Virus record (IMG/VR): IMGVR_UViG_3300037961_002747
Location: 1 to 27,842 of that record
Origin: a virus
Length of the DNA: 27,842 bases
Direction: 5' to 3' (one strand)
Numbering within the stretch: the first letter of the stretch is position 1; each line of letters begins with the position of its first letter. The position numbers and the translations under genes are program-made. The notes beneath the pieces are model-generated. The model did not search any database. It worked only from the letters and a program-made list of their open reading frames with translations, and was not told where the DNA came from. This document shows, in pieces, positions 10,730 to 24,598 of this stretch.

Positions 10730-11140
10730 TTATATTTTTTTAATCATTTCAGTTGCGTTGCTATCTCCTTTTATATATCCTAATTCTTCGTATGTTTTAA
10801 TTAAGTTATCATTTTTTAAAAGCGCATAAATATAAACGCTTCCATTATCTTGACAGATGTTAGTTAAAACAGCTATCAAAAACTTTACTGCTTCGTGTCT
10901 TAGTTTGGTATCCTCTATTTTTTTGTCGGATATAATCCAATCCACCCACGAAACTTTTGAGTTGGTCATATACATAAAACCAGCGCATATAGGCTTTTCA
11001 TTATGTAAAACCATCAATCCTCCTACTCCTTCGTTTGGTAAAAAATCTTTAGGAGGCGGTTGCCAATCCCAATCTTTCCACCAACCTACCAATACATCTT
11101 CATAATCAGAAGGATTTAATTCTTTTATATTAAATTCCAT
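10730..11140 (-). CDS. GNAT-like acetyltransferase-fold protein (136 aa)
   Basis: I chose the ATG at 11140-11138; a TTG nine bases upstream would add three residues and is less likely. The 136-residue product looks like the small GNAT-fold proteins common near phage structural genes. It has an N-terminal 'IKELNPSDYEDVLVGWWKDW', a central beta region with VLHNEKPICAGFMY and VSWVDWIISDK, a helix with KFLIAVLTNIC, and a C-terminal 'LIKTYEELGYIKGD' that matches the last helix and strand of GNAT enzymes. The acetyl-CoA loop R/Q-x-x-G-x-G/A is not clear, so catalytic activity is uncertain. It follows a TATCTTTG box and sits between a tail protein and the ejection genes. It could acylate a virion protein or have only a structural role. 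Confidence 0.6.
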   Translation of the reverse strand: MEFNIKELNPSDYEDVLVGWWKDWDWQPPPKDFLPNEGVGGLMVLHNEKPICAGFMYMTNSKVSWVDWIISDKKIEDTKLRHEAVKFLIAVLTNICQDNGSVYIYALLKNDNLIKTYEELGYIKGDSNATEMIKKI

Positions 11141-11146
11141 TCTATG

Positions 11147-11154
11147 CAAAGATA
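11147..11154 (-). promoter_or_regulatory. Possible Bacteroidetes -7 promoter box (TATCTTTG)
   Basis: TATCTTTG on the - strand is an exact TAnnTTTG match in the 20-base gap before the GNAT-like gene, 6 bases ahead of its ATG. No -33 TTTG at the usual spacing was found. It would drive the GNAT gene and the three ejection-protein genes behind it. Confidence 0.5.
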
Positions 11155-11160
11155 CTAATT

Positions 11161-12906
11161 TTACGGATAGCTTTTCATTACATCGCTTTCTACAGCAAAG
11201 AGTTCCGTCTTATTAGTATTCACATTTACTATAGTAAATATACAATAATGTCCTAGTAATCCATGCGATTCTGCTTCAGAACTTTTGATAAACATTATAT
11301 ATGGGTCATTAAGTGGGAAGGCTACTGCTCCATCATAGGTAGTGCTTACAAATAAATTATTGATACCATTTTGTAAATCAACCTGTATATTAGTTACAAC
11401 ACCACCAAATGTAACCTCAGTGTATTGAGGCAGTGAGTGGTATACATAATCACCAATACTTATGATATTACCTATTGAAACCAGTGGGTCTGTTGAAAAA
11501 CTAAGTGTAGTTAAACCACCATCAACTGTTACGTTGGACGTTTTACCGATACCATTAGCTGACCTTAGTGCATACTGCCCTTCAAGTGCAGGCACTTTAC
11601 CTTCTTGTCTTACATACGCAAACCAGCTTCCTTCTTTCTTTTCAAACCACCCATCTTCAATTAATCCGTTTTGCTGTATGTCTGTTTCCATATATGCTTG
11701 CCAAGCATTATCAGATTCTAAATTTAAAGTTTTAAATATTTTATTTTCTAGTGGATTTATGTTAAATACACTTGATATTTGTGAATTAAACTGCTCACCA
11801 TAGTAGTTGTTTCTTAACTCGTTAGTGTTATGTTGGTATAAGTTACCTCCTTTGAATGTGTAAAAGAAGTTGTTCATACCTATCATATATTCAGGTATAA
11901 AAGAATAAAATGAAGGCCAACCTTGTGCATTATCACTATAAGATAACGTCCACTCTGTATTAACAGGAGATGGTATAGGTGGCACAACACTTGTTGGAGC
12001 TGGTGTAGGAGAAGGAGCAACGGGTGTTGGGTCTGTTGGTGACGCACATGTCGAGTCATATCTTAAATTATTTTCACCTCCCATGTATCCGTGGAAGTAA
12101 CACGCATAGCTTACTGCTCCAAAGTCACCGTTTACATTTATAGTTATATCTCCATAGTAATAAGTGTAGCTGTATCCATCTGGCCCAGTCTTTGTTCCTG
12201 CATTATATTGTCCTGTATATGAAATCAATGTATCTAAACCATAATTAAGAATAGCAATTGGGTGCGCTGAAGGAACACCGCTTAAAGTATACTGCCCTAA
12301 TTGTACTTTATAAATACCATAAGCGCCATTAAACACGTAAGCTCTACCTGTTCCAAATCCTAAAGAACTTAAATCTATTTCCAAAACCGTTACTGGATTA
12401 GTTTGAACCAAACAATACTCTGGATAAGTAGTGCTCGTAGGAACGGGAGATGGGCTAGGGCTAGGTGTAGGTACAGTATTACAAGATGCACAGTCTATAA
12501 ATGACTCTAATGAACTTACATTTACATTAGAACGATTTATAGTTACAACTGGATTGTGCCAACATTTTGAATTATGCCTAACAACATTTGGCCATAAAGT
12601 AGGAGGGTCAGTAGTTCCTCTAAATGTTTGTTTTAGACCACTATCACAATCATCATATTCGTAATACTCATATTCTATTAAAACTGTATCATCAGCTTCT
12701 CCACAATTTGTGTTACAATTTGTTTGTAAATATTGCCACGAACCATATTGAGACATTAAGAGAATAGGAGTGTTAAACCCTAAACATAAATCCGCTGTCT
12801 TGTTTTCATCAAGCTCATATTCAATTTTATTTCCATTGGCACATTCCACTGTAAATTTACAAGTGTCTGCTCCAATAGGACAGAAAAATCTAACTGTTAC
12901 AGCCAT
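11161..12906 (-). CDS. Modular tail/virion protein with cupredoxin-like domain and Pro-rich linkers (581 aa)
   Basis: Four parts are visible. Residues 1-143 form a Cys-rich N-terminal region; 80-143 (YEYYEYDDC...LWPNVVRHNSKCW...DCASC) match the 'A' modules of the 830-residue protein. Residues 146-158 are a Pro linker (TPSPSPSPVP). Residues ~165-287 form a beta domain ending YGDITINVNGDFGAVSYACYFHGYMGG, in which His215, Cys269, His272 and Met275 match a type-1 copper ligand set (H...C-x2-H-x2-M). Residues 290-315 are a second Pro linker, and ~317-581 form a domain with 'GWPSFYSFIPEYMIGMNN', which resembles a C-terminal domain of virion proteins. It is likely a tail fibre or tail-attached adsorption protein. 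It directly follows the modification operon and is a candidate substrate for it. The start lies 18 bases after a TAAATTTG box. Confidence 0.75.
   Translation of the reverse strand: MAVTVRFFCPIGADTCKFTVECANGNKIEYELDENKTADLCLGFNTPILLMSQYGSWQYLQTNCNTNCGEADDTVLIEYEYYEYDDCDSGLKQTFRGTTDPPTLWPNVVRHNSKCWHNPVVTINRSNVNVSSLESFIDCASCNTVPTPSPSPSPVPTSTTYPEYCLVQTNPVTVLEIDLSSLGFGTGRAYVFNGAYGIYKVQLGQYTLSGVPSAHPIAILNYGLDTLISYTGQYNAGTKTGPDGYSYTYYYGDITINVNGDFGAVSYACYFHGYMGGENNLRYDSTCASPTDPTPVAPSPTPAPTSVVPPIPSPVNTEWTLSYSDNAQGWPSFYSFIPEYMIGMNNFFYTFKGGNLYQHNTNELRNNYYGEQFNSQISSVFNINPLENKIFKTLNLESDNAWQAYMETDIQQNGLIEDGWFEKKEGSWFAYVRQEGKVPALEGQYALRSANGIGKTSNVTVDGGLTTLSFSTDPLVSIGNIISIGDYVYHSLPQYTEVTFGGVVTNIQVDLQNGINNLFVSTTYDGAVAFPLNDPYIMFIKSSEAESHGLLGHYCIFTIVNVNTNKTELFAVESDVMKSYP
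12046..12345 (-). other. Cupredoxin-like domain inside the 581-aa tail protein
   Basis: Residues ~188-287 read as a small beta domain with the pattern H-P (His215), then an aromatic-rich 'YSYTYYYGD', then CYFHGYMGG. The spacing C-x-x-H-x-x-M, preceded by a distant His, fits a mononuclear blue-copper site. Similar 'HGYMGG'-type sequences are found in marine proteins with cupredoxin folds. Whether copper binds is not known. Confidence 0.5.
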
Positions 12907-12924: not shown

Positions 12925-12932
12925 CAAATTTA
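12925..12932 (-). promoter_or_regulatory. Possible Bacteroidetes -7 promoter box (TAAATTTG)
   Basis: TAAATTTG on the - strand overlaps the stop codon of the epimerase gene and lies 18 bases before the ATG of the 581-residue tail protein. It fits TAnnTTTG exactly and would uncouple the tail gene from the modification operon. Confidence 0.5.
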
Positions 12933-13895
12933 CGAATTATTTAGTTGACTTTTAATCCAAGCGTATGTAAGAGCCACGCCTTCTTTTAAAGGTCTTGCGT
13001 AATCAGCTATGCTTACTTTTTGTCTATATAAATCATTGTCACTGTTTCTTCCACGCACTCCAAGTGGCCCTGGTATATGAACCTTTTTAAGTTTTTTACC
13101 ATCTACTTCGCAGGCGTAATCAACCAAAGTGTTTATAGAAACCATCTCTTCACTTCCGATATTTATAGGGCCTTGAAATTGTACAGCATTATTACAAAAA
13201 TCAAGCGTAGCTTTTATACAATCATCTATATACAGAAAACTTCTTGTCTGCTCACCATCACCCCATATTTGAATTTCATCTTTTCCTGTCAATACTTTTC
13301 TACATATAGCCGCTGGTGCTTTTTCTCTGCCACCCTGCCAAGTTCCCTCTGGCCCAAAAACATTGTGGTATCTAGCTATTCGAACTTTTGTGCCATTGTC
13401 TCTGGCAAGAGCTGCATATAGTCTTTCACTAAATAGCTTTTCCCAGCCATACTCTGAGTCTGGATTAGCTGGATATGCTGATGACTCTTCACAGTTAGGA
13501 TTATCTGCATCCATTTGGTTATGCTCTGGATATATGCAGGCACTACTGCTAAAAAAAACCATAGGTATATTTTTTTCTTTTACTATACGAGTCACATTTA
13601 AATTTATAGTAGCACTGTTTAGCATTACATTTAAATCATTGTCACCTGTAAATATATATCCAGCACCACCCATATCTGCAGCCAACTGATATATCTCATC
13701 TACATTCTCATCTATTGATTTATTTAAATGCTTATAATTAGTGGCGTCTAGTTTATGAAATTCATTAGCAGCGGTTGAACTAAACTCTGGAAATTTAATA
13801 TCTATACCGATAACATAATTACCTAGAGAACTTAATTTTCTTACTAAGTGTGAGCCAATAAAACCACCAGCTCCTATAACGACTATTCTTTTCAT
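12930..13895 (-). CDS. GDP-mannose 3,5-epimerase (GDP-L-galactose synthesis)
   Basis: A 321-residue extended short-chain dehydrogenase/epimerase. The N-terminal Rossmann motif is GAGGFIG (residues 8-14). Similarity to plant GDP-mannose 3,5-epimerase is high throughout: LAADMGGAGY (71-80), SSACIYPE, YGWEK (149-153), GTWQGGREKAPAA, WGDGEQTRSF, INIGSEEMVS and GPLGVRGRNSDN. The catalytic residues I recall for the Arabidopsis enzyme (Cys145, Tyr174, Lys178, Lys217, Arg306) all line up here with one constant offset of 25: Cys120, Tyr149, Lys153, Lys192 and Arg281. The enzyme converts GDP-D-mannose to GDP-L-galactose (and GDP-L-gulose). Its start overlaps the stop of the GlcNAc-transferase gene by four bases (ATGA). 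It would supply an L-sugar donor for the fucosyltransferase-like protein of the same operon. A GDP-fucose synthase is less likely, since the 'AADMGG' and 'GREKAPAA' phrases are specific to this group. Confidence 0.92.
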   Translation of the reverse strand: MKRIVVIGAGGFIGSHLVRKLSSLGNYVIGIDIKFPEFSSTAANEFHKLDATNYKHLNKSIDENVDEIYQLAADMGGAGYIFTGDNDLNVMLNSATINLNVTRIVKEKNIPMVFFSSSACIYPEHNQMDADNPNCEESSAYPANPDSEYGWEKLFSERLYAALARDNGTKVRIARYHNVFGPEGTWQGGREKAPAAICRKVLTGKDEIQIWGDGEQTRSFLYIDDCIKATLDFCNNAVQFQGPINIGSEEMVSINTLVDYACEVDGKKLKKVHIPGPLGVRGRNSDNDLYRQKVSIADYARPLKEGVALTYAWIKSQLNNS

Positions 13896-14719
13896 TGCTT
13901 AAATTTTAATATATGTTGTGTCCATTCTGTTGCGCTACGTGGACTATTTCTCTGGTTGAGCACGTCAACAAACTCTGATATATAGCCTGTTAGCTTTACT
14001 TCTTCTGATACCAAGGTACGATATTTTTCTTTACTCCCTGGAGAGTTGTTTCTATAGTTATGCCAAACAAGAGCTTCTCTCATAAACTCTACTTTATGAC
14101 CATACATAAAAGCCATGCAGCTTGTAATTTCTTGGTCTAAAAAAGGGTGCAGGTATTCATCAAATAAACTTAGCTGGGTAAATGCTCCTGACGAAAAAGT
14201 GTTTGAACCACTAACAACTGCTGTTTCTTTAAAATCATCTTGCACACCTATACCTAAGCCACGCATGTGAAAATTATGAGATAAATGTTTTATTATATTA
14301 TATGTATTGTGAGGTCTTTGTGTGGTATAATAACTATAATCTTCATCAAAATCAAAGTTTGGAGGAAATCCTGTTAGCACTACATTTTCACCACGCTCAA
14401 GCAAACTATTTATATATATATCATCCCAGTTGTATTTAAATCTGCAATGACTATCTACAGTCAAACAAAAATCTTCTCCATCATATAGCTCTTTATATAT
14501 TTCATTTCTATGCCACCCTGTTCCTTTACTAAAATTACTTGGTGTAAATTTATATCTAACGTTTTGAATTTGTTGAACCTCTGTATTGGGAGTTTCAGCT
14601 TGTTCACTAACTCCTATGTATATTCTTTCTGGGTATTTAGCTTTAGAAAAAGCGTCGTTAATAGTGTTGATTAAATCAGGGTCTTTAAAACAAGCGATAT
14701 TAACAAAGAGTTTAAACAT
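13892..14719 (-). CDS. GlcNAc transferase-like protein, Skp1-Gnt1 type (PF11397)
   Basis: The start is the ATG at 14719, which overlaps the stop of the preceding gene by 8 bases; a longer frame to 14848 lies inside that gene and is rejected. The 275-residue product begins with FVNIACFKDPDLINTI, the usual opening of this family, followed by YPERIYIGV. It has GWHRNEIYKELYDGEDF (residues 68-84) and then TVDSHCRF with the D-x-H metal/nucleotide motif (Asp89-Ser90-His91), and later SGSNTFSSGAF, FLDQE (193-197) and VWHNY. This set matches the GNT family, whose founding member adds GlcNAc to hydroxyproline of Skp1 in Dictyostelium. Activity here, presumably in the cell cytoplasm, would be on a hydroxylated protein made by the oxygenase encoded in the same operon. 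Donor and acceptor are inferred. Confidence 0.78.
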   Translation of the reverse strand: MFKLFVNIACFKDPDLINTINDAFSKAKYPERIYIGVSEQAETPNTEVQQIQNVRYKFTPSNFSKGTGWHRNEIYKELYDGEDFCLTVDSHCRFKYNWDDIYINSLLERGENVVLTGFPPNFDFDEDYSYYTTQRPHNTYNIIKHLSHNFHMRGLGIGVQDDFKETAVVSGSNTFSSGAFTQLSLFDEYLHPFLDQEITSCMAFMYGHKVEFMREALVWHNYRNNSPGSKEKYRTLVSEEVKLTGYISEFVDVLNQRNSPRSATEWTQHILKFKQ

Positions 14720-15773
14720 CCCAATAGTATCTGTATAAATGTTGCCAGCTCCACTCTTCCTCTTCCCAAGGATATTTGTCGTATATAAGCTCTGGTTTAT
14801 CAAAATTACACCCAACTCTTGGATTTGTAAACATTCCCATACTTGCACGATTCACGTGTATGTAATCTGTAAATGTAGACATCACGCTGCCAAGAAACTG
14901 AAATGAATAACTTGGAATTATCTGGTCATATATAGTTGCTTTTAGTGGTGTAAGGTTTTGCATAAAATTATCTAAAAAGTATATCTCATATTTGTCTTTT
15001 AAAAAATTAAATATTGATTTATCTTTTTCATCAGTTGCAATGTAAAGTGGTAGATTATTTTTAAATAAATGTTTATCAAGAAAATCCGGTATTTGTTCAA
15101 GAAGCGGAACGGTGTGTGGCCTAGTATCTATAAAATCCCCTCGTCTTATGTGTATAGCATTGTATGCACCAAGAGCTTGTTTTATAAAATCTACGGCTTC
15201 TATGTTCTCTTGTTTAAACTTAAAACCATTTAACATTTTAGATTTGATTTCTTTCTTTTTATTATCATTTGCTGCGTATACGCTGTGATAAAAATGACCA
15301 AATAAATTTCTAGGAAAGTGTATGAATTTATCTTCGTGCAACAAATTATATTGTTTTCTACCTTGTGAAAACTTATTAAAGTCTTCTTCATCGTGAACAT
15401 CTGTTGTTAAAACAAAACCAATACAACTATGAAGTGGGTGTAGTTCTTTATAGACTTCATCAAACAACATTAGTTTAGCAAAGTTATCTACTCCAGTAAA
15501 ATATGTTTTCCCACTTATAGCTGCATACTCTGGTATATCGTTGTAGTTAACTGTATTGAAAGTTTGTTTAAACACACTCTCATCCCATATATCAAAAGGA
15601 TTTATATAAGTTTCTTTTTTATCCCAAGGATTAATAGCATTAAAATAGATACCAGGTGGTATTATAAACTTTCGATTGGTAAGCTCTGATATGGCCAGAC
15701 CTATTTCTAAAGACATCCTTACGTTAGCAAATCCTGCCCACCAAGGTTCAATAGAAATATATTTATCCGACAT
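14712..15773 (-). CDS. Fucosyltransferase-like (O-FucT/GT11-type) glycosyltransferase (353 aa)
   Basis: A 353-residue protein with the features of the GDP-fucose transferase superfamily. The N-terminal phrase GFANVRMSLEIGLAISEL (residues 14-31), with FIIPP following, is the 'gx.N....l..al.la..l.r.lvlPp' opening. AIHIRRGDF (residues 206-214), with Arg210-Arg211-Gly212-Asp213, is the conserved H-x-R-R-G-D motif that binds the GDP-sugar. LYIATDE (243-249) then EIYFLDNF are the later conserved strands. No signal peptide or membrane anchor is present, so it acts in the cytoplasm. Its start overlaps the oxygenase stop by 11 bases. The operon encodes a GDP-L-galactose synthase but no GDP-fucose synthase, so it may transfer L-galactose rather than L-fucose; fucosyltransferases can accept GDP-L-galactose, as in plant mur1 mutants. 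Acceptor unknown. Confidence 0.78.
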   Translation of the reverse strand: MSDKYISIEPWWAGFANVRMSLEIGLAISELTNRKFIIPPGIYFNAINPWDKKETYINPFDIWDESVFKQTFNTVNYNDIPEYAAISGKTYFTGVDNFAKLMLFDEVYKELHPLHSCIGFVLTTDVHDEEDFNKFSQGRKQYNLLHEDKFIHFPRNLFGHFYHSVYAANDNKKKEIKSKMLNGFKFKQENIEAVDFIKQALGAYNAIHIRRGDFIDTRPHTVPLLEQIPDFLDKHLFKNNLPLYIATDEKDKSIFNFLKDKYEIYFLDNFMQNLTPLKATIYDQIIPSYSFQFLGSVMSTFTDYIHVNRASMGMFTNPRVGCNFDKPELIYDKYPWEEEEWSWQHLYRYYWDV

Positions 15774-17073
15774 ACTCCCAATCTTTTAATTTATAATGTA
15801 CATAAAAGTTTCTAAAGTGTGTTCCACCAAAAACTTCTTTTCTTCCGTGTTCACACACAGCTGATTCGTATAGTATCATGTCGCCTGGTTGAGCATATAC
15901 TTTATACCAATCTCCATCGTGTCCTTGGATATCAAGCGGCCAATCATCAGCTTCTGGTTTATTTGCACATCCACAAGCTAAATCTTTATCCACTATAATT
16001 ATAGACGATATGTGATGTGTAGCTATTCTATCTACGTGTGAAGTTAACGTTGCTCCTTTTTTATATGAACGTATACCGTATATAAAAGATTTTAAAAGCG
16101 GTTCTTTAGCCCATTCTTGATGCGTAGATAATAGCTGGTCGTGTATCATTGTTCTTACTGTAGGCAAATGGTCAAAAGACATAAGGTCTGAATCTCCACC
16201 CACAATAAACTGGTCTTTTCCTGTAAAGTTTTCTGTTTCTAATTTATCTTTTAACAGCTCGTAAGATTCTCTAATTAAATTCCAGGTTTCAGTAGGGCAT
16301 TTAATTAATGCAAAACCATTGTCTGTAAATCTAGGAAAATCATCAACGTTTTTAAACTCTTTTACTTGCGTTGGTTGTTTTAAATCGGCAGCCTGTGATG
16401 CTTTTACTATATATGATTTATTCTGCATACCCTCTACTATTTTAGTCTCAATAGGGTCTTGTACTTTTTCTACTTTATTTTCTTTTTTAGAATCATTATA
16501 CATTTTCTCATCACCAGCTCCATCCCAACTTCTTTCTCTCCACCACGATGTAACAATATATTTTTTACCTTCATCTACAGTGACACCCTCGTGCATGTAT
16601 TGCTCTTGCAATTCACCATCTTTCATATTCTCCCACCATAAAGCTTTACCTACATCTGGATATATTGTTTTTTTAAGTTTTGGAAAATGTGTACCTCCTC
16701 CTTTGTATCCTACATTTAAGTATATCATAAATGTATGCGTTCTATTTCCTGATGCTTTGCAGTGCATATCATAGGCAGGCCCACTAAAAAAATCATTATG
16801 TGGTTTAAAATATTGTCCAGGCTCATATAACTGTCCTTGTAATGCTTCACCTTTATTTACATCAATACCAAGTGTGTCTGCAATCTTTTGTTTTATATTC
16901 CAAACTAAACCACTTTGAGAATCTAAATTTGATGTGCTTGATGTTCTGTGGTCTGTAACATCACTTCTGTCAGTGCCTCCAACAACTACAGAAGAGCGTG
17001 AATGATTGGCGTCAATCATAGTTATTAACTGCTGACACTCGTCAGGAGTTAGAAAGTTGTTTATTTCTTGCAT
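15763..17073 (-). CDS. Double-domain prolyl-4-hydroxylase-like 2-oxoglutarate/Fe(II) oxygenase (436 aa)
   Basis: Two catalytic domains are fused. Domain 1 (residues ~1-180) is a standard P4H: GQYFKPHNDFF gives the iron ligands His92 and Asp94, then RTHTFMIYLN, GGGTHFP, and YMHEGVTVDEGKKYIVTSWWRE, with His161 as the third ligand and Lys171 ten residues later as the 2-oxoglutarate salt-bridge residue. Domain 2 (~240-436) has HVD (His346, Asp348), then ISSIIIVDKD, PGDMILYESAVCEHGRK with His409, and Arg421 as a likely 2-oxoglutarate contact. This second half resembles algal proteins annotated as prolyl hydroxylases. The linker (~185-235) is Lys/Glu-rich. Such enzymes hydroxylate proline in Pro-rich proteins. 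It is the first gene of the modification operon and lies 53 bases after a protein full of (Ser/Thr/Ala)-Pro repeats. Substrate inferred. Confidence 0.9.
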   Translation of the reverse strand: MQEINNFLTPDECQQLITMIDANHSRSSVVVGGTDRSDVTDHRTSSTSNLDSQSGLVWNIKQKIADTLGIDVNKGEALQGQLYEPGQYFKPHNDFFSGPAYDMHCKASGNRTHTFMIYLNVGYKGGGTHFPKLKKTIYPDVGKALWWENMKDGELQEQYMHEGVTVDEGKKYIVTSWWRERSWDGAGDEKMYNDSKKENKVEKVQDPIETKIVEGMQNKSYIVKASQAADLKQPTQVKEFKNVDDFPRFTDNGFALIKCPTETWNLIRESYELLKDKLETENFTGKDQFIVGGDSDLMSFDHLPTVRTMIHDQLLSTHQEWAKEPLLKSFIYGIRSYKKGATLTSHVDRIATHHISSIIIVDKDLACGCANKPEADDWPLDIQGHDGDWYKVYAQPGDMILYESAVCEHGRKEVFGGTHFRNFYVHYKLKDWEYVG

Positions 17074-17093
17074 TAGATTTAATTAAATTTTAA

Positions 17094-17101
17094 TAAAGTT
17101 A
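17094..17101 (-). promoter_or_regulatory. Possible promoter box, one base off TAnnTTTG (TAACTTTA)
   Basis: TAACTTTA lies in the 52-base gap before the oxygenase gene, 20 bases ahead of the ATG. It differs from the Bacteroidetes -7 consensus only at the last base. The gap has no hairpin, so read-through from the 830-residue gene is also possible. Confidence 0.35.
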
Positions 17102-17125
17102 GTAATTATTATGAGAAAGTAAAAA

Positions 17126-19618
17126 CTATGGGCAATTAGTTACTGTACAAGAAGTTGTAAATGCTGAGCCATCCCAATATCTAGTGAAGCTACCATTTGT
17201 ATAATATCCTGGTAATGCTAATCTATCACAACTACTTGTTCTATCAAGTCTTGTAGCTGTACACCAGTCTGTAGTGTTCATAAAGAATCCAAGAGAAGTA
17301 TTACATGTCCAACCAGTATCACTTGCAAATGGCCCTTCTAATGAAATTGCATTACATGATGCCACTGGTGCAGGCGTTGGAGCTGGCGTAGGCGATGGCG
17401 TTGGACTAGGAGCTGGCGTAGGCGCAGGTGCTGGAGTAGGCACTGTTGCATTACACGTTGCACAATCAGAGTGAGTTGAGACTGGTACGTTTGAGTTTAC
17501 TATACCTGCTGCATCTTGAACTTCATAACAAACTCCATCTGACATTTTTACTGAACTACCAGGCGATAAGATTGAAGTAGAAGCTACTTCTGTAAATCCA
17601 GTTCCACTACCATCACAGTTTTCAATTAGATAATAGTATGTTGAAACCACTGGTGCTGGAGTCGGTGATGGTGTAGGAGTCGGTGCAACTGTTGGTACAG
17701 GTACAGGAATAGGTGATGGTGCAGGCGTTGGAGCTCCACAACCAGATAATCCACCACAATTAGAGCTTGCAGAATCAAACACTCCTTGACAGTTGTGGAA
17801 TCCTGGACTAGCATCTGTTATTTCGTAACATTGTGTTGTGTCAAATGTTGGACATCCACCTGTTGTACCACCTGAACTAAACTTAATACCTAACCCTACA
17901 ACTAAACCACTTGCTCCTATCACTTCAACGTAATAAGTTGGGCTTGTAGTACCACACGCTACTACTCCAATTTTCTGCGTAGCTACTGGAGCAGGTGTTG
18001 GACTAGGGCTTGGAGATGGGGATATAGAACAATTTACTATTGCTTGTACTTCTCCAGTTGACAATATTAATAGTGCGTAATCCGAAGATGCTTGACCTTG
18101 TACGTTTGATACCCCATACCATTGTAGACCACCATTAAATGGTGTAGAAAGTGATGAGTTAGCGTACATTATATCTCCTGTTTGAATCAATGATACATTA
18201 GCTCTACTTGTAAATATGTATGCTGGAGTTGATGCAGCACACGCAAGTGTGTCAGAACTTAATCCATTACCTGCAAATCCAGATACAAATTTTCTATTAG
18301 CACTTTCACAATCAAAACAATTAGTGTGACTAGTTAAAGATTCTACACTTACTGTTGATGTTGCTGTTGTTGTTGCAGTATAGTTGAAACATAAATCATT
18401 ACCGCTTACATTGTATTCTACAACATTAGGCCAGCTAGATGTAGTTAATTTTCTGAATACTTGAGTTGTACTCGTGTAACACTCTGTATAAGTTGCATAA
18501 TCATATATTGGTGTTGGTACACATCCACCACAACTACTATAAGCTGTGTTAACAGTAACAGTTGAATTGAATGTTGAAGCAGCATTATCAATTATTTCCC
18601 AACAAGTTGAACCAGTAAACTCTGGGTTTGGCCCTGCTGCAGCTCCTGTTATTTCTATAGCTTGTGAATTTAAGTATCCTGATGTTCCACTAATTCTTAC
18701 TAGATATGTTGGACTTGTAGTACCACACTGTCTTATTTCAACATCTTGTGTTGAAACCGGCGCTGGTGTAGGTGTTATAGGGACAGGAGTTGGAGCACAA
18801 TTAACTGTTGCATCAACCACACCTAAAGAGTTAATTAATAAAGCATAACCACCATCTAAATCTGGATAATGACCGTTTACATTAGTTACACCATAAAAGT
18901 TTAATCCACCATTCCAAATATTTGTTAATCCAGCATTTGTATAAATAGTGTCTCCAGTTTGTATTGAAGCCACATTAGGTCTTGATGTGTACATACTATT
19001 AGTAGCTTGTGCAGCACATGCAGTTGTTGAATTACCAACTCCATTTCCTACTGTATATGTAGAGAATATTTGAGTTGATGCCACTGGTGCGGGCGTTGGT
19101 ATAGGAACTGGACTAGGAGTTGGTGATGGTGTAGGAGTTATACAAGATGCACAATCTGCAAAAGTTGGCAGTCCTGCTGCATCTACTAAAGAAGTTGAAG
19201 CAGTTGCTCCTGTATTTTCCCAACATTTACCATCATAAACAAGTACATTAGGGAATGTTCCACCAGATACAAGTCTAAATATTTGTGTGTTTGTTCCGCT
19301 ACATTCTGTATATTCTCTGTAATCATAAGTTACAACTGGCGCAGGTGTTGGACTAGGACTAGGTGTTGGACTAGGACTAGGTGTTGGACTAGGTGTTACT
19401 GTTGGCGCAGGTGTTGGTATAGGGCTTGGCGATGGTGATAAACAATTTGGACATTGTTGCTCTGCATATAAAATACCTGCAGCTTGTTGTCTTACAATTG
19501 TTTGGTCTGAATACCATCCATCAGGAGCAAAAGTCGATAGTGCCGCATCAGTATATAATGCAGTTGCAGTTGAAAAACTTGCTGAACTATAATAATATGT
19601 TCCTGTTGTTGCCGGCAT
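17126..19618 (-). CDS. Modular Cys-rich tail protein with arabinogalactan-like Pro linkers (830 aa)
   Basis: An 830-residue protein of small Cys-containing beta modules joined by Pro linkers. The N-terminal module is 1-59. Linkers are 60-96 (37 residues), 161-179, 275-288, 533-546, 629-658 and 725-753, all alternating Ser/Thr/Ala with Pro. Modules in order are A (97-159, YTEC...PNVLVYDGKCW...DCASC), B (181-274, TGDTIYTNAGL...NGGLNFYG), C (289-366, CGTTSPTY...CGGC), then A (372-437), B (444-531), C (547-627), an A-like one (659-722) and a C-terminal Cys-rich module. The A-B-C set is duplicated. There is no signal peptide. It is probably a tail fibre or adsorption protein; its 5' neighbour is the tail hub, whose C-terminus carries the same linker and module. 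Alternation of Ser/Thr/Ala-Pro is what hydroxyproline-O-glycosylation uses in plants. The start follows a TAACTTTG box. Confidence 0.7.
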   Translation of the reverse strand: MPATTGTYYYSSASFSTATALYTDAALSTFAPDGWYSDQTIVRQQAAGILYAEQQCPNCLSPSPSPIPTPAPTVTPSPTPSPSPTPSPSPTPAPVVTYDYREYTECSGTNTQIFRLVSGGTFPNVLVYDGKCWENTGATASTSLVDAAGLPTFADCASCITPTPSPTPSPVPIPTPAPVASTQIFSTYTVGNGVGNSTTACAAQATNSMYTSRPNVASIQTGDTIYTNAGLTNIWNGGLNFYGVTNVNGHYPDLDGGYALLINSLGVVDATVNCAPTPVPITPTPAPVSTQDVEIRQCGTTSPTYLVRISGTSGYLNSQAIEITGAAAGPNPEFTGSTCWEIIDNAASTFNSTVTVNTAYSSCGGCVPTPIYDYATYTECYTSTTQVFRKLTTSSWPNVVEYNVSGNDLCFNYTATTTATSTVSVESLTSHTNCFDCESANRKFVSGFAGNGLSSDTLACAASTPAYIFTSRANVSLIQTGDIMYANSSLSTPFNGGLQWYGVSNVQGQASSDYALLILSTGEVQAIVNCSISPSPSPSPTPAPVATQKIGVVACGTTSPTYYVEVIGASGLVVGLGIKFSSGGTTGGCPTFDTTQCYEITDASPGFHNCQGVFDSASSNCGGLSGCGAPTPAPSPIPVPVPTVAPTPTPSPTPAPVVSTYYYLIENCDGSGTGFTEVASTSILSPGSSVKMSDGVCYEVQDAAGIVNSNVPVSTHSDCATCNATVPTPAPAPTPAPSPTPSPTPAPTPAPVASCNAISLEGPFASDTGWTCNTSLGFFMNTTDWCTATRLDRTSSCDRLALPGYYTNGSFTRYWDGSAFTTSCTVTNCP
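17738..19330 (-). repeat. Duplicated A-B-C module triplet in the 830-aa tail protein
   Basis: Residues 97-366 and 371-627 carry the same three modules in the same order. Matching phrases: YTECSGTNTQIFR / YTECYTSTTQVFR; IQTGDTIYTNAGL / IQTGDIMYANSSL with NGGLNFYGV / NGGLQWYGV; and CGTTSPTYLVRI / CGTTSPTYYVEV. The duplication is old: the two copies differ at many positions, and the second copy has lost its inter-module linkers between C and A and between A and B. Confidence 0.75.
19343..19398. repeat. 18-bp tandem repeat encoding Pro linker
   Basis: On the + strand the unit AGGTGTTGGACTAGGACT occurs at 19343-19360 and 19361-19378, then its first 12 bases at 19379-19390 and a further partial copy. 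The unit encodes a six-residue Ser/Thr-Pro block of the first linker (residues 60-96). Identical adjacent copies suggest that linker length changes by slippage or unequal recombination. Confidence 0.8.
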
Positions 19619-19642: not shown

Positions 19643-22600
19643 TTATACTGAACATCTTGAATCTCCACATCCTGCTACTACAAATGTTACCTCTCCATTT
19701 GTTCCTGTTCCACCTGTTGCGTATAATGAAGCACATCCTATCACTGTTCCTCCGCTTGTATACTGAACTTCATTTCCAACTACTATTCCAAGAGTAGTGT
19801 TTGCTTTTAAATAAACAGCTTGTAAACTTACACAATCAATACCAATAAAATAATCATACGTTGGTATAGCTGGTGCAGGCGTAGGTGATGGACTTGGTGT
19901 TGGTGTTGGACTAAATGTACAATCACAACAAGCTTCAAAATAACTTCCAGAAGAAAAACATAATTCTTGTCCTATAGAATTTCTTAAATCATATATTAAA
20001 TATAATTTATCACCACCAGCTGGCAGAGTAAAGTCAGCAGTATATAAGTTTGGAGCTCCTGTTGTTATAATTGGAGTTGCTTGAACTGATGCTGCTAATA
20101 ATATATTAATGTCAGTTGAATTGTTCTCATATAGTGCGTCTGTTCTTAAATATCTAAATTCATTTTCTGTAGGGTCAAACTGGAAATTATCAAAGTTTAT
20201 TTTATTACTTCTCATTGTAATAATAGCTCCATCTTGAGGTATTACGTTTGCACCCTGTCCTCCTTCAAGTTCTCTATACTGAGAGACAATAGGGTCATTA
20301 GGACTATTAATAAATGTTACTAAGTCAGATTGTGTTGGCGATATAACTGTTCCTTTTGACCAGAAAAATTCAGTGTGAGTAAACTGACCTGCATTTGCAT
20401 TTGTTGATAAGGTTATACTGTATACATTAAATAATTCTGGGCCTGGACATTTAACTGTTATTTGTATAGTATCATCAACTGCTGCGTCTGTACTTACTAT
20501 TAAAACTACTTCCGTTGGAACGGAGTTTGGTTTACTAAAAGATAAAGTTCCGCTTTGATAAACCACACCAGTGGTGTAAGTTACTCCGTCATAAATAGCT
20601 TGTACGGTGTATCCTGTACCAGATACTTGACCTTCAGTTTCAATATCATCACCTCCTTCAGTTATTATTTGTTGCTCCGTTGCTTCTGTTACAATTAAAT
20701 CAGAGTTTTCAAAAGGTATTACATAATCTATATAAACAGTTCCAACTTCTTGTTTTATATCAACACAATAAACAAACTCTTGTCCTGCAACTACAGTAAT
20801 ATTTTTTGTAACACCACAAGCTAAACATAATTCTGTTTCTGGTTTAATTATCGTATTAGAAGTAAAAACATATTCGTGCATGTATGGGTCATAACCACCA
20901 AGCTTTTGAGTAGCTGAAGCATCAGCAAATAAATCTCTAAACCAACTTCTCATTCCTTGATTAGAAATAACAGTTAGTATTTCATTTTGGGCTGAGCTTC
21001 CAGTTAATTTTACAATTACATTTCTTTTGGCATCAGAAAAGTATTTGTTTTCACCAAACTCTGCAAAACTTTCAGGGTGATTACTTATACCATAATCTTC
21101 TATACGAGCTATCTGCGTTCCTAATACTTCAGGAACAGATGTAACTGCACCACCACCAGTAGAATCTGATAATAAGTTTTTGCCTGCAAGAACATAAGAT
21201 ATTTTATCTTCTTGTAAAACAAGTATATCCGTTTCTCTTGCAAATAATATCTCTACATCACCATAAGTTTCTTCAAGAGCTTTAAAGTTTAATAAACCTA
21301 AATTAAACTCGTTTAATCTGTTTACATTTGACTCATCATTATAAACACCACTGTATGTCAAATCAGCAAATCTATGCGCTGCTTTATATTCTTCATTAGA
21401 AGTAGTAAATATTCTATTACCTAAATTAAACGCTGGTTCTTTTATTGAATCTCTAACCCTATAACTTTCAACTCCGTTTCCAAAAGTAAAACAGTTTGCA
21501 AATCCTGTATTTATAATAGCAGGCTGAGTAACTACTCCAGATGAATCTTTTACTTGATTCTGAACGTTACCTAAATGCAAATCTCCATTTATGTCAAAAG
21601 ATTCACTATTTTCATACCAAACATCAGGTAGAGCGTCTACTGGTTCAGTTTCAAATACATATATAGAATCAGTTCTGTAAACAGTAAATGAGACTTGAAC
21701 TTCAGAACGTTTATTAGTTGAGCTTCCACAAGCCCTTCCTCCATTTATAAGTAAATAAATTAAATTATTTCCATTAGGGTCTTGATTAGCTGTATCTTCA
21801 TACATTCTAAAATAAAAAGTTTCTTCAGGGTCACTAGCTGTAGGGCCAAATAAGTTAGCATCTGCTATTTGTGATTTACTTTTTTTATCTGACGTGTAAA
21901 CATTAACAGCTCCAAGAGGCGGAGCAGCCACTGAATTTGTAGTCGTAATATATTGAGTGTCGATAACTACTGAACCAGTAGTGTCTTCGACACCTTCATC
22001 TAAAGTTTGGTCTACGTTATCACCATTAAACCAATCAATCATATTAGTATAACTTCTTGAAGAAGTAAAGTTTTTTTCTAAAACATAATTCTGCCTTTGA
22101 CAAGTAGGGCCAACAGTTGCTGAGCCTCCGTTTCTTTGAAACTCAATACGCATTGTAATTCTTGTTCCTACTGGAACGTCATACACATCATAAACTGGAA
22201 GAGAACCAGATTGGTTAGTGGCTGTAAAAAACGGGAACGCTACAACTGGATAGAATGTGTCATCTTTACATATCGCTTTTTTTTCAGGAACAGAGACAAT
22301 AGCATTATTAGATTCTACAGCCGAAAAATTAGAAGCGTTAATTTTCATATATACTCCAGCAAACACTTCTATTTCATTTCCAGCAGCATCAAACACATCA
22401 ATAAAGCCTGCAGTTTTCGCTTCTTTTTCTAAAACTGTAGCAATGGCACATTTATTCATTGGGCCTCTTGCATCTGCTTTTACAATTAATTTATCCCCAG
22501 ACTCAACCTTATTAGCATTTTCTCCGTCAAGTAAAAAATAACTAGCTCCAGTTCCCGAATCTCTATATACTATATTACTATATATAGTTTGATAATCTGT

Positions 22601-24598
22601 TGCTGTTGGTTTTATAACAAATTTATATTTTGTTGCCCAATAAGGCGCTATTTGTTCAGGAGCAATACTTACTTGAATATAATTTCTTGACGTTGATAAA
22701 TTACATGGAAGATTCACACTATTTAATTCACTTACTTGAGCTGTAGAAGCTCTGTTGTAATCATCCATATACACCATTCCTATCTCATACCCTCTGTTAC
22801 TATGTAGACTTCTTGCTGTAGCAGATGATTGAAAAGTAACAGTTGCATCAGTAATTCTATTATATGTAAATAAATAAGCTAAAGCAACTGGGTCATAATA
22901 AACAGCAGCTAAAATTTGAAGACCAAATGTATTACTTCCAATTGAGTAATTTGTTCTAATAATTGGCTCACCCACAGCTCCAGCTGCAGGCACTGGCGTT
23001 GCACTTGACACACCTGTTTGGTTTAATTGTGTATAATTAGAATCAAAAGATTGAGGTAAAGCTAAATTAAATACATCAGTTAATGTGTTTCCATTTTCTG
23101 CGTTGGAAACAGCTTGTATAGATGTTGGGCTACCTACTTTGTCGTAAAAGTCTGTGCTATTTACTAAATCATAAACAGTGTCATAATCTTGTTGCAAAGT
23201 ATAAGTCCAGTTAACATAATAATTTTGATTTCCTGGTGTAGCTGCTGGGCCTCCTCCTGTTACAACTGAACTGCTGTATTCAAATCCAAATGAAAAAGTA
23301 AGCGATGAACCAGCTTTTAACTTAGAACCACTTGAAGTAATTAATGAACTTAAATCAATCATCATATTACTGTCATCAATATTTACAGGCGGGGGAGTGC
23401 TAGGAGTAGAACTTAAATCTATAGAATAATAACCTTTCGAAATATTAACAGGCAGATTAGATAAATTTATTTCTTCTGATTTTAAAGTTGCAGTAAAATC
23501 AAATTTAACATTACCTCCGTCAGCTGTAACAAAATCATATCCTTCTGTATAATTACCATACACTAATCTATTACCCATTAAAGTTTGAGCTTTAGCAAGC
23601 TGTGGAACATTGTCATATAATCTTAAAATTTCTGAATCAGGTAAAACACTAAATATTTTTCTTTTAGTAAAAGTGGTTTGTTGTTCTTGATTTACACCAT
23701 ATTGAGCTCTACTTATTGTTTTTATAATTTTAATTACATTAGAATCTGCTTCTTTAAATAAAATTTGTATATCAGTTACTTTAGAGCTACCAGTATTAAA
23801 ATATATAGTTACAGCATTATCTTCATTTAACATACCCTCATTTAAATAACTATTCACGCTAAAATCAAAACCACCTGGAGTAAATGCTGGTTCAGTAAAC
23901 TGAGATATTGCAGAATATTCATTATTTTCATATTTATATCTGTAAGCAAAACAAATAAATTTATCTTCTAAATAAGCGTCAGTTTGGCCAGGGGCATAAT
24001 AAGTTTCAATCCTTGGCGCACTAGTCGGAGGTTTTTTAATAACTAATATATCATCCTGGTTAAAACCATCTGTCAAAATTCCTGGTTGTGGGTCACCATA
24101 ATTTTCATTGATATTAATTACTCTTGGTGGGTTTGTATTATCAGTAAAAAATAAAAGGTTTTCAATCTTATCTACACCTGTAATTAAAAAGTTTGGATTA
24201 AAATTTAAAGTAGTGTTTATACCATTTCCGTCATCTATACTTATAACATGATATATAAGTTCTCCTGTCTCTACATCATAAGAAACAATCATATCTAACT
24301 TACCAGTCGCTCCTTGAGTAAACGCAGGGTCGTGTACAAACCAATAAATTACAAGCTGTGCTCCATCTTGAAATGCCCCAATACATTTTGCTTGAGAACT
24401 AAGTTTTGTTCCATCAACATACTGAAGCTCTGTTAATGGAATGTTTCCTTTTGAATTTTCAACAGCACCTATTTCTGATTCTTCCGTAGAACCAAGTCTT
24501 ACATTCAAAGCATCTACATACTCTCCATTCGGGACAAGCCTTTCATCAAGGCTTTTATTCATACGGCCCGCTATAAAATTTCTTTGAATGTTTGCCAT
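19643..24598 (-). CDS. Tail hub / nozzle (stabilisation) protein, P22 gp10 or T7 gp12 role, with added C-terminal module (1651 aa)
   Basis: The N-terminus 'RNFIAGRMNKSLDERLVPNG' followed by EYVDALNVRLGS and GAVENSKGN is the typical opening of large podovirus tail hub proteins of aquatic phages. These use a beta-propeller-like body to close the portal channel and carry fibres. Residues ~50-1550 are a long beta-rich body with repeated 'D.I..LLFFTDN.NPPR'-like elements, as in propeller blades. Near the C-terminus there is a new part: Cys-rich CCDC (1557-1560), a Pro linker SPTPTPSPSPTPAP (1563-1576) and a C-type module (1579-1651) with YDYFIGIDC and VGNEVQYTSGGTVIGC, related to module C of the next protein. 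It starts 1 base after the upstream stop. At 1651 residues it is longer than T7 gp12 (~800). Hub role by sequence style and order. Confidence 0.75.
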   Translation of the reverse strand: MANIQRNFIAGRMNKSLDERLVPNGEYVDALNVRLGSTEESEIGAVENSKGNIPLTELQYVDGTKLSSQAKCIGAFQDGAQLVIYWFVHDPAFTQGATGKLDMIVSYDVETGELIYHVISIDDGNGINTTLNFNPNFLITGVDKIENLLFFTDNTNPPRVININENYGDPQPGILTDGFNQDDILVIKKPPTSAPRIETYYAPGQTDAYLEDKFICFAYRYKYENNEYSAISQFTEPAFTPGGFDFSVNSYLNEGMLNEDNAVTIYFNTGSSKVTDIQILFKEADSNVIKIIKTISRAQYGVNQEQQTTFTKRKIFSVLPDSEILRLYDNVPQLAKAQTLMGNRLVYGNYTEGYDFVTADGGNVKFDFTATLKSEEINLSNLPVNISKGYYSIDLSSTPSTPPPVNIDDSNMMIDLSSLITSSGSKLKAGSSLTFSFGFEYSSSVVTGGGPAATPGNQNYYVNWTYTLQQDYDTVYDLVNSTDFYDKVGSPTSIQAVSNAENGNTLTDVFNLALPQSFDSNYTQLNQTGVSSATPVPAAGAVGEPIIRTNYSIGSNTFGLQILAAVYYDPVALAYLFTYNRITDATVTFQSSATARSLHSNRGYEIGMVYMDDYNRASTAQVSELNSVNLPCNLSTSRNYIQVSIAPEQIAPYWATKYKFVIKPTATDYQTIYSNIVYRDSGTGASYFLLDGENANKVESGDKLIVKADARGPMNKCAIATVLEKEAKTAGFIDVFDAAGNEIEVFAGVYMKINASNFSAVESNNAIVSVPEKKAICKDDTFYPVVAFPFFTATNQSGSLPVYDVYDVPVGTRITMRIEFQRNGGSATVGPTCQRQNYVLEKNFTSSRSYTNMIDWFNGDNVDQTLDEGVEDTTGSVVIDTQYITTTNSVAAPPLGAVNVYTSDKKSKSQIADANLFGPTASDPEETFYFRMYEDTANQDPNGNNLIYLLINGGRACGSSTNKRSEVQVSFTVYRTDSIYVFETEPVDALPDVWYENSESFDINGDLHLGNVQNQVKDSSGVVTQPAIINTGFANCFTFGNGVESYRVRDSIKEPAFNLGNRIFTTSNEEYKAAHRFADLTYSGVYNDESNVNRLNEFNLGLLNFKALEETYGDVEILFARETDILVLQEDKISYVLAGKNLLSDSTGGGAVTSVPEVLGTQIARIEDYGISNHPESFAEFGENKYFSDAKRNVIVKLTGSSAQNEILTVISNQGMRSWFRDLFADASATQKLGGYDPYMHEYVFTSNTIIKPETELCLACGVTKNITVVAGQEFVYCVDIKQEVGTVYIDYVIPFENSDLIVTEATEQQIITEGGDDIETEGQVSGTGYTVQAIYDGVTYTTGVVYQSGTLSFSKPNSVPTEVVLIVSTDAAVDDTIQITVKCPGPELFNVYSITLSTNANAGQFTHTEFFWSKGTVISPTQSDLVTFINSPNDPIVSQYRELEGGQGANVIPQDGAIITMRSNKINFDNFQFDPTENEFRYLRTDALYENNSTDINILLAASVQATPIITTGAPNLYTADFTLPAGGDKLYLIYDLRNSIGQELCFSSGSYFEACCDCTFSPTPTPSPSPTPAPAIPTYDYFIGIDCVSLQAVYLKANTTLGIVVGNEVQYTSGGTVIGCASLYATGGTGTNGEVTFVVAGCGDSRCSV

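Follow-up and report, generated by a model that had tools for sequence, protein, structure and literature searches.

A probable tail-protein modification operon in a crAss-like phage: a prolyl-4-hydroxylase-type oxygenase and an interchangeable sugar cassette beside X-Pro-linker proteins

The window analysed here, the complete 27,842-base virus record IMGVR_UViG_3300037961_002747, carries on its minus strand a structural module extending from about 27.8 kb to 3.7 kb, within which lies an operon of four enzyme genes headed by a two-domain oxygenase of the prolyl-4-hydroxylase (P4H) type. In transcription order, the genes of this region encode a 1651-residue structural protein, an 830-residue protein, the two-domain oxygenase, a fucosyltransferase (FUT)-like protein, a PF11397 protein of the GT60 type, a GDP-mannose 3,5-epimerase (GME)-like enzyme and a 581-residue protein. 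Six open reading frames listed in an original prediction for this locus were all found at the coordinates it gave, and its picture of four overlapping enzymes lying between virion proteins with Ser/Thr/Ala/Val-Pro linkers was borne out, the identities being assigned by profile or solved-structure match. The overlaps among the four enzyme genes measure 4-11 nt, once the start of the GT60 gene is corrected (see below), and a promoter and terminator scan returned signal at chance level. Since the 581-residue protein matches PF25729, the crAssvirus muzzle C-terminal domain (E 2.3e-18), the operon sits among tail-tip genes. The muzzle domain, together with the records nearest by the 1651-residue protein (among named ones, an uncultured podovirus from Manatee Spring, at 42%, and Cellulophaga and Flavobacterium phages), identifies the window as a crAss-like phage module, whose host is probably a marine member of the Bacteroidota.

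The oxygenase (15763..17073, minus strand, as are all window features given below; 436 residues) is a 2-oxoglutarate (2OG)-Fe(II) enzyme matching PF13640 with an E value of 1.5e-13, and its N-terminal domain matches P4Hs of solved structure with E values from 1e-23 to 1e-10. This domain carries the HxD...H...K residues H92, D94, H161 and K171, which are invariant in all 72 dereplicated P4H loci that we examined, while the C-terminal domain has H346, D348 and H409, with its HxD retained in 67 of 69 loci. An AlphaFold2 model (mean predicted local distance difference test score, pLDDT, 77), compared to solved folds by Foldseek, lies nearest to the Bacillus anthracis P4H (E 1e-12), to vCPH of the chlorovirus PBCV-1 (5c5t) and to the Chlamydomonas P4H, the last of these being matched also in its complex with (Ser-Pro)5. 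Bacterial, chlorovirus and algal P4Hs give E values of 1e-12 to 1e-9, and the Dictyostelium PHD a far weaker one of 6e-6. The algal enzyme holds (Ser-Pro)5 in a tunnel formed between two loops (PMC9676403). An exact-motif scan of cellular genome contigs with the P4H motifs, which tests for close relatives only, found none.

The FUT-like protein (14712..15773; 353 residues) resembles O-fucosyltransferases: it matches PF10250 (E 8.6e-7) with 29.3 bits, slightly below the Pfam cut-off of 31.5, and human POFUT2 at E 9e-6, and H208, R210 and D213 of its HxRRGD motif are invariant among homologues, one of which, occupying the same slot in locus L050, scores 49.9 bits against PF10250 and thus exceeds the cut-off. 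The GT60-type glycosyltransferase (GT) matches PF11397 at E 2.2e-26 (93.6 bits; cut-off 21) and has an invariant DSH motif (D132 and H134, in the numbering of the longer frame). The GTG start of its longest frame (13892-14848) is probably wrong, and we moved the start to 14719 because homologues begin at Met44, which leaves a gene at 13892..14719 encoding 275 residues. The GME-like enzyme (12930..13895; 321 residues) matches a GDP-mannose 3,5-epimerase of solved structure (2c59) over its full length at E 5e-87, and retains the SSACIYPE and GGREKAPA segments of characterised GME; such genes are common in cyanophages. GDP-L-galactose is the product of GME, and the presence of this gene would suggest GDP-L-galactose as a donor no less than fucose, so that the FUT-like enzyme might use L-galactose instead of L-fucose.

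Three proteins of the virion module bear runs of alternating X-Pro, and each is a likely substrate of these enzymes. The 830-residue protein (17126..19618) has an N-terminal domain and beta-rich domains with (X-Pro)n linkers between them, namely SPSPSPIPTPAP and TPSPTPSPSPTPSPSPTPAP (19337..19438), TPTPSPTPSPVPIPTPAP (19085..19138), SPSPSPSPTPAP (17987..18022), APTPAPSPIPVPVP and APTPTPSPTPAP (17651..17734) and VPTPAPAPTPAPSPTPSPTPAPTPAP (17366..17443). The 581-residue protein (11161..12906) combines an N-terminal half with (X-Pro)n linkers and the C-terminal muzzle domain; it carries VPTPSPSPSPVP (12439..12474) and, directly upstream of the muzzle domain, APSPTPAP (11995..12018). Beyond these two, already pointed out in the original prediction, the 1651-residue structural protein (phrog_14478; 19643..24598) is a third linker-bearing protein, with a single linker, SPTPTPSPSPTPAP, near its C-terminus (19871..19912). 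Counting linker residues as (XP)>=4 runs against 2000 composition shuffles, we obtained 114 for the 830-residue protein (shuffled mean 0.6, maximum 18) and 20 for the 581-residue protein (shuffled mean 0.07, maximum 10). In the model of the 830-residue protein, beta-rich blocks with pLDDT of about 80-90 (residues 96-160, 181-275, 289-531, 546-627 and 660-725) are interspersed with stretches of low confidence where the linkers lie (162-177, 277-288, 532-545, 628-658 and 728-796), and no confident model was obtained for the first 95 residues, two linkers among them; the protein is thus predicted to resemble beads on a string. Foldseek with this model gave uncharacterised viral proteins only and no PDB match, and PDB profile searches with the 1651- and 581-residue proteins gave no match.

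In order to place the locus among its relatives, we gathered 214 dereplicated loci (designated by L numbers) with the P4H, FUT-like, GT60 and 1651-residue proteins, a hydroxyproline O-arabinosyltransferase (HPAT)-like protein and the structural proteins of P4H-less phages as queries. Linkers were present on the contig in 71 of the 72 P4H loci, the exception being a 5-kb fragment, and in all 45 complete P4H intervals, where they amounted to 18-358 residues (median 142). Among 84 intervals of P4H-less relatives, 73 were without linkers and only two had at least 18 linker residues, with a maximum of 28. No relative was thus seen to keep the operon while lacking Pro-rich linkers, an outcome that the original prediction had named as contrary to it, and its proposal that the tail linkers are the substrate gains strong support from this association. 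At the level of larger records, each of eight P4H records of 44-63 kb contained a long alternating-Pro pattern and one PF13640 2OG oxygenase gene, and a whole-record check of four P4H-less relatives of 56-67 kb found neither. The X position of linkers across the P4H-bearing relatives is Thr in 41%, Ser in 20%, Ala in 15% and Val in 11% of cases (87% together), and the scarce short runs of P4H-less phages have more Asp, Ile, Lys and Asn. Of 126 ORFs with linkers on the P4H contigs, 93 fall into the structural-protein and muzzle-domain families, and most of the others, judging by layout, into the family of the 830-residue protein.

Wherever gene layouts were examined, the P4H occupied a constant slot, with the muzzle-domain protein on one side and the structural protein or its 830-residue neighbour on the other; some phages seemingly have the 830-residue and structural proteins fused into one of about 1900-2250 residues. 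In the P4H-less locus L002, the counterpart of the 830-residue protein has 183 residues and no linkers, and the muzzle-domain protein consists of the C-terminal part only, the N-terminal half being absent, likewise without linkers. In a tree of the structural protein, the P4H phages form one clade (support 99), and the data show a single acquisition, after which P4H and linkers were strictly kept together across large divergence. The highest linker content, 358 residues, occurs in L172 (3349-5223 and 8880-11471), where the structural-protein frame is fragmented and the N-terminus of the P4H looks unrelated.

While the P4H slot stays put, the cassette that follows it varies between phages. A recognised cassette gene is present in 60 of 63 P4H-to-muzzle intervals, most often a GT32-like gene alone (18 loci). 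The FUT, GT60 and GME set of this window was found in 7 loci, FUT plus carbamoyltransferase sets in 8, a GT60-GT32 fusion in 6, a dTDP-glucose-dehydratase-like gene with a 273-residue protein and an HPAT-like protein in 6, a 220-residue protein with an HPAT-like protein in 6, and a radical SAM/SPASM enzyme with GT60 in 2; other HPAT-like sets also occur, and 3 loci have no cassette. The 273- and 220-residue proteins match nothing in Pfam and are assigned to the cassettes by position only. The HPAT-like family, which the window itself does not carry, is distantly related to PF23452, the HPAT family of Pfam, matched by 6 of 13 members at E<=0.01 (best E 4e-8); the L138 member (20772-21605) scores 25.2 bits against a gathering score of 23.9. 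A search of 50,697 phage records gave no match to the HPAT-like protein, and an exact-motif scan of cellular genome contigs, again testing for close relatives only, found none. HPATs of Arabidopsis are implicated in attaching the arabinose that lies innermost in the chain on hydroxyproline (PMC4132260). Two side observations concern cassette content. In L050 (10000-12802), L037 and L031, a NodU-like carbamoyltransferase and a small PhyH-like protein lie beside the FUT-like gene, which suggests carbamoylated sugars or further oxidation. A radical SAM/SPASM enzyme is part of the cassette in L064 (11236-12138) and in L078, the two loci in which the C-terminal domain of the P4H has lost its HxD, so that the N-terminal domain would be predicted to be enough for activity.

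Sequence comparison thus establishes the gene identities, the catalytic motifs, the fixed slot, the association of linkers with P4H and the swapping of cassettes. On these grounds, we consider it likely that the operon serves specifically to modify, after translation, tail proteins of the phage itself. Its P4H, with two domains, would hydroxylate linker prolines, within the Ser/Thr/Ala/Val-Pro runs between small beta-rich domains, in three tail proteins (the 830- and 581-residue proteins and, at its C-terminus, the 1651-residue protein), and that these linkers are its substrate is the part that we hold most firmly, as very probable. The cassette enzymes would then attach sugars to these linkers too; in the phage of the window, GT60 may add the first sugar and the FUT-like enzyme extend it or add a second, with GME supplying GDP-L-galactose or a related donor. 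The outcome would be stiff, glycosylated rods about the tail tip, with a sugar coat differing between phages because the cassette is swapped. The order of the sugars given here is conjectural, as is the benefit, which could be stiffness, protease resistance, adsorption or camouflage. Whether the sugars sit on hydroxyproline rather than on Ser or Thr appears to us evenly balanced. More tentatively, and a little short of an even call, the whole marine phage clade may make plant-like hydroxyproline-rich tail-tip glycoproteins, the hydroxylase being constant and the coat differing with the exchangeable cassette (GT60, GT32-like, HPAT-like, O-fucosyl plus carbamoyl) that a phage carries.

Several observations weigh against this interpretation. 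The P4H has a single origin, so that its association with linkers represents one event that was kept and not many independent ones; significance tests taking loci as independent overstate it, and independent contrasts on the tree are impossible with one origin. In the alignment of the beta I-II region, Phe89 stands in 72/72 loci at the position of the substrate-contacting Tyr140 of CrP4H; such a tyrosine is highly conserved in P4Hs without strictly defining them, and the change to Phe seems a conservative one, hence our naming of the enzyme as P4H-type. PBCV-1 likewise encodes a P4H that works on peptides, but its virions gave no sign of hydroxyproline (PMC7019647). In locus L240, a sister to the P4H clade whose 24.6-kb record is incomplete, linkers occur with GT60 and no 2OG oxygenase was found, L082 and L083 carry P4H and linkers with no GT in the slot, and three loci are without a recognised transferase. 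From L240 and L082/L083 it follows that hydroxylation and sugar addition can separate. The original prediction of a hydroxyproline-linked glycan is plausible and, as a theme, supported by the HPAT matches of an alternative cassette; L240 and L082/L083 count against a firm choice of hydroxyproline over Ser/Thr. In L240 (7822-11756), TP/SP linkers lie in the muzzle-domain protein with GT60 in the slot, possibly an ancestral or a derived state without hydroxylation; its GT60 is nearest to those of Xanthomonas and Stenotrophomonas jumbo phages, of which the one in XacN1 adjoins a carbamoyltransferase.

These same loci bear on an explanation in which GT60 and the FUT-like enzyme glycosylate Ser/Thr of the linkers in mucin fashion, prolyl hydroxylation being a separate stiffening step. 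GT60 counts among its members both protist enzymes whose target is Thr and the one that modifies hydroxyproline in Skp1, and POFUTs use Ser/Thr; Thr and Ser together fill 61% of the X positions in linkers, and L240 (linkers and GT60 with no 2OG oxygenase found) and L082/L083 (P4H without a GT in the slot) agree with such a division. However, several cassette types include an HPAT-like transferase, HPAT being named for hydroxyproline, and the P4H heads the cassette and accompanies every type of GT, with GT found without P4H in L240 only. We regard Ser/Thr glycosylation as a real possibility, though on balance not the probable one. That the P4H and linkers are associated by descent only, the genes being a passenger sugar island at a tolerated site, would fit the single origin on the tree, but is hard to reconcile with catalytic P4H residues kept in 72/72 loci while sugar genes turn over completely, and with linkers that range from 18 to 358 residues and are never lost where P4H is kept; we hold it very improbable.

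The target might also lie outside the virion. A P4H acting on a host protein, for example EF-Tu or a ribosomal protein, in favour of infection, with linkers as ordinary spacers, is suggested by 5v7y, described as EF-Tu-modifying and among the nearest solved P4Hs, and by Erwinia Y3, Salmonella Sen-NF and Microcystis Mel-JY01, whose P4H-like genes lie away from annotated tail genes and whose genomes contain no long X-Pro arrays. In our phages, however, a host target is unlikely, since the P4H is flanked by tail genes with linkers, is retained only together with linkers and is followed by sugar enzymes. The other P4H phages had been considered as independent support for tail modification and were rejected for want of long X-Pro arrays. 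Least probable of all, in our view, is hypermodification of phage DNA by an oxygenase, a GT and a carbamoyltransferase, as in phage TET systems: a 2OG oxygenase does occur with GTs, and some loci have a NodU-like carbamoyltransferase, but the oxygenase matches PF13640/P4H with no Tet_JBP match in the profile search, no C5-cytosine methylase (PF00145) was found in 12 large related records, and the association is with tail linkers and not with replication genes.

Modification of tail linkers would bring the phage close to the hydroxyproline-rich glycoproteins of plants and algae (extensins and arabinogalactan proteins), a chemistry familiar above all from cell walls. Both have X-Pro repeats with Ser, Thr, Ala or Val at X, their P4Hs share a fold, and some relatives of the phage add an HPAT-like transferase; unlike those systems, the predicted phage system has an operon adjoining its substrate, a bacterial cytoplasmic setting and a cassette that swaps. 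The Skp1 pathway of Dictyostelium and Toxoplasma (PhyA, Gnt1, PgtA) is likewise cytoplasmic and pairs a prolyl hydroxylase with a PF11397/GT60 enzyme. The original prediction had seen in the phage genes the same succession of activities; this was not supported as worded, as the phage P4H is not of the PhyA/PHD type and has its fold near the bacterial, chlorovirus and algal enzymes, the GT60/FUT pair is merely one among several interchangeable cassettes, and Skp1 has one modified Pro where the phage linkers have many repeat Pro, which leaves a loose analogy. PBCV-1 vCPH is virus-encoded, shares the fold and acts on Pro-containing peptides (PMC7019647), but has one catalytic domain and belongs to a eukaryotic virus, in whose virions hydroxyproline was not found, as mentioned. 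Synechococcus phage S-SCSM1 has, adjacent to one another, a 2OG oxygenase, a FUT-like protein (30% to P0003) and a 2OG oxygenase like the C-terminal domain (30%), in an oxygenase/O-FucT-like cluster at L001:11409-13826 (102203-104620 of S-SCSM1), as well as virion proteins with long X-Pro arrays (at 28463-28788 and 172919-172992 of the record); unlike our phage, it is a myovirus with several further 2OG oxygenases and with the cluster apart from the arrays, and the likeness may be a coincidence.

Virus-encoded P4H and phage virion glycosylation are already known separately. GTs decorate structural proteins in several phages, a likeness to the present system, and we know of no phage virion glycosylation that involves prolyl hydroxylation, nor of any described phage system of this kind. 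In the open-access literature, we found no paper linking crAss-like phages to prolyl 4-hydroxylase, no relevant work on virions and prolyl hydroxylase encoded by phages, and no phage operon joining P4H and glycosylation with its own X-Pro substrate. Hydroxyproline glycoproteins are known chiefly from plants, algae and protists; if our interpretation is true, viruses make them inside bacteria too, with the enzyme beside the substrate, in a compact bacterial system for hydroxylated, glycosylated polyproline rods. It would also give a role to some of the many phage 2OG oxygenases lacking an assigned function, and suggest that phages vary their tail-tip sugar coat. As cassettes are swapped, each transferase can be tested directly for its specificity. 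Finally, adjoining the muzzle gene of the window is a gene for a 139-residue protein (10730-11149), which is kept in relatives with and without P4H and whose homologue in ctfjg026 is annotated as a subunit of an N-terminal acetyltransferase complex.

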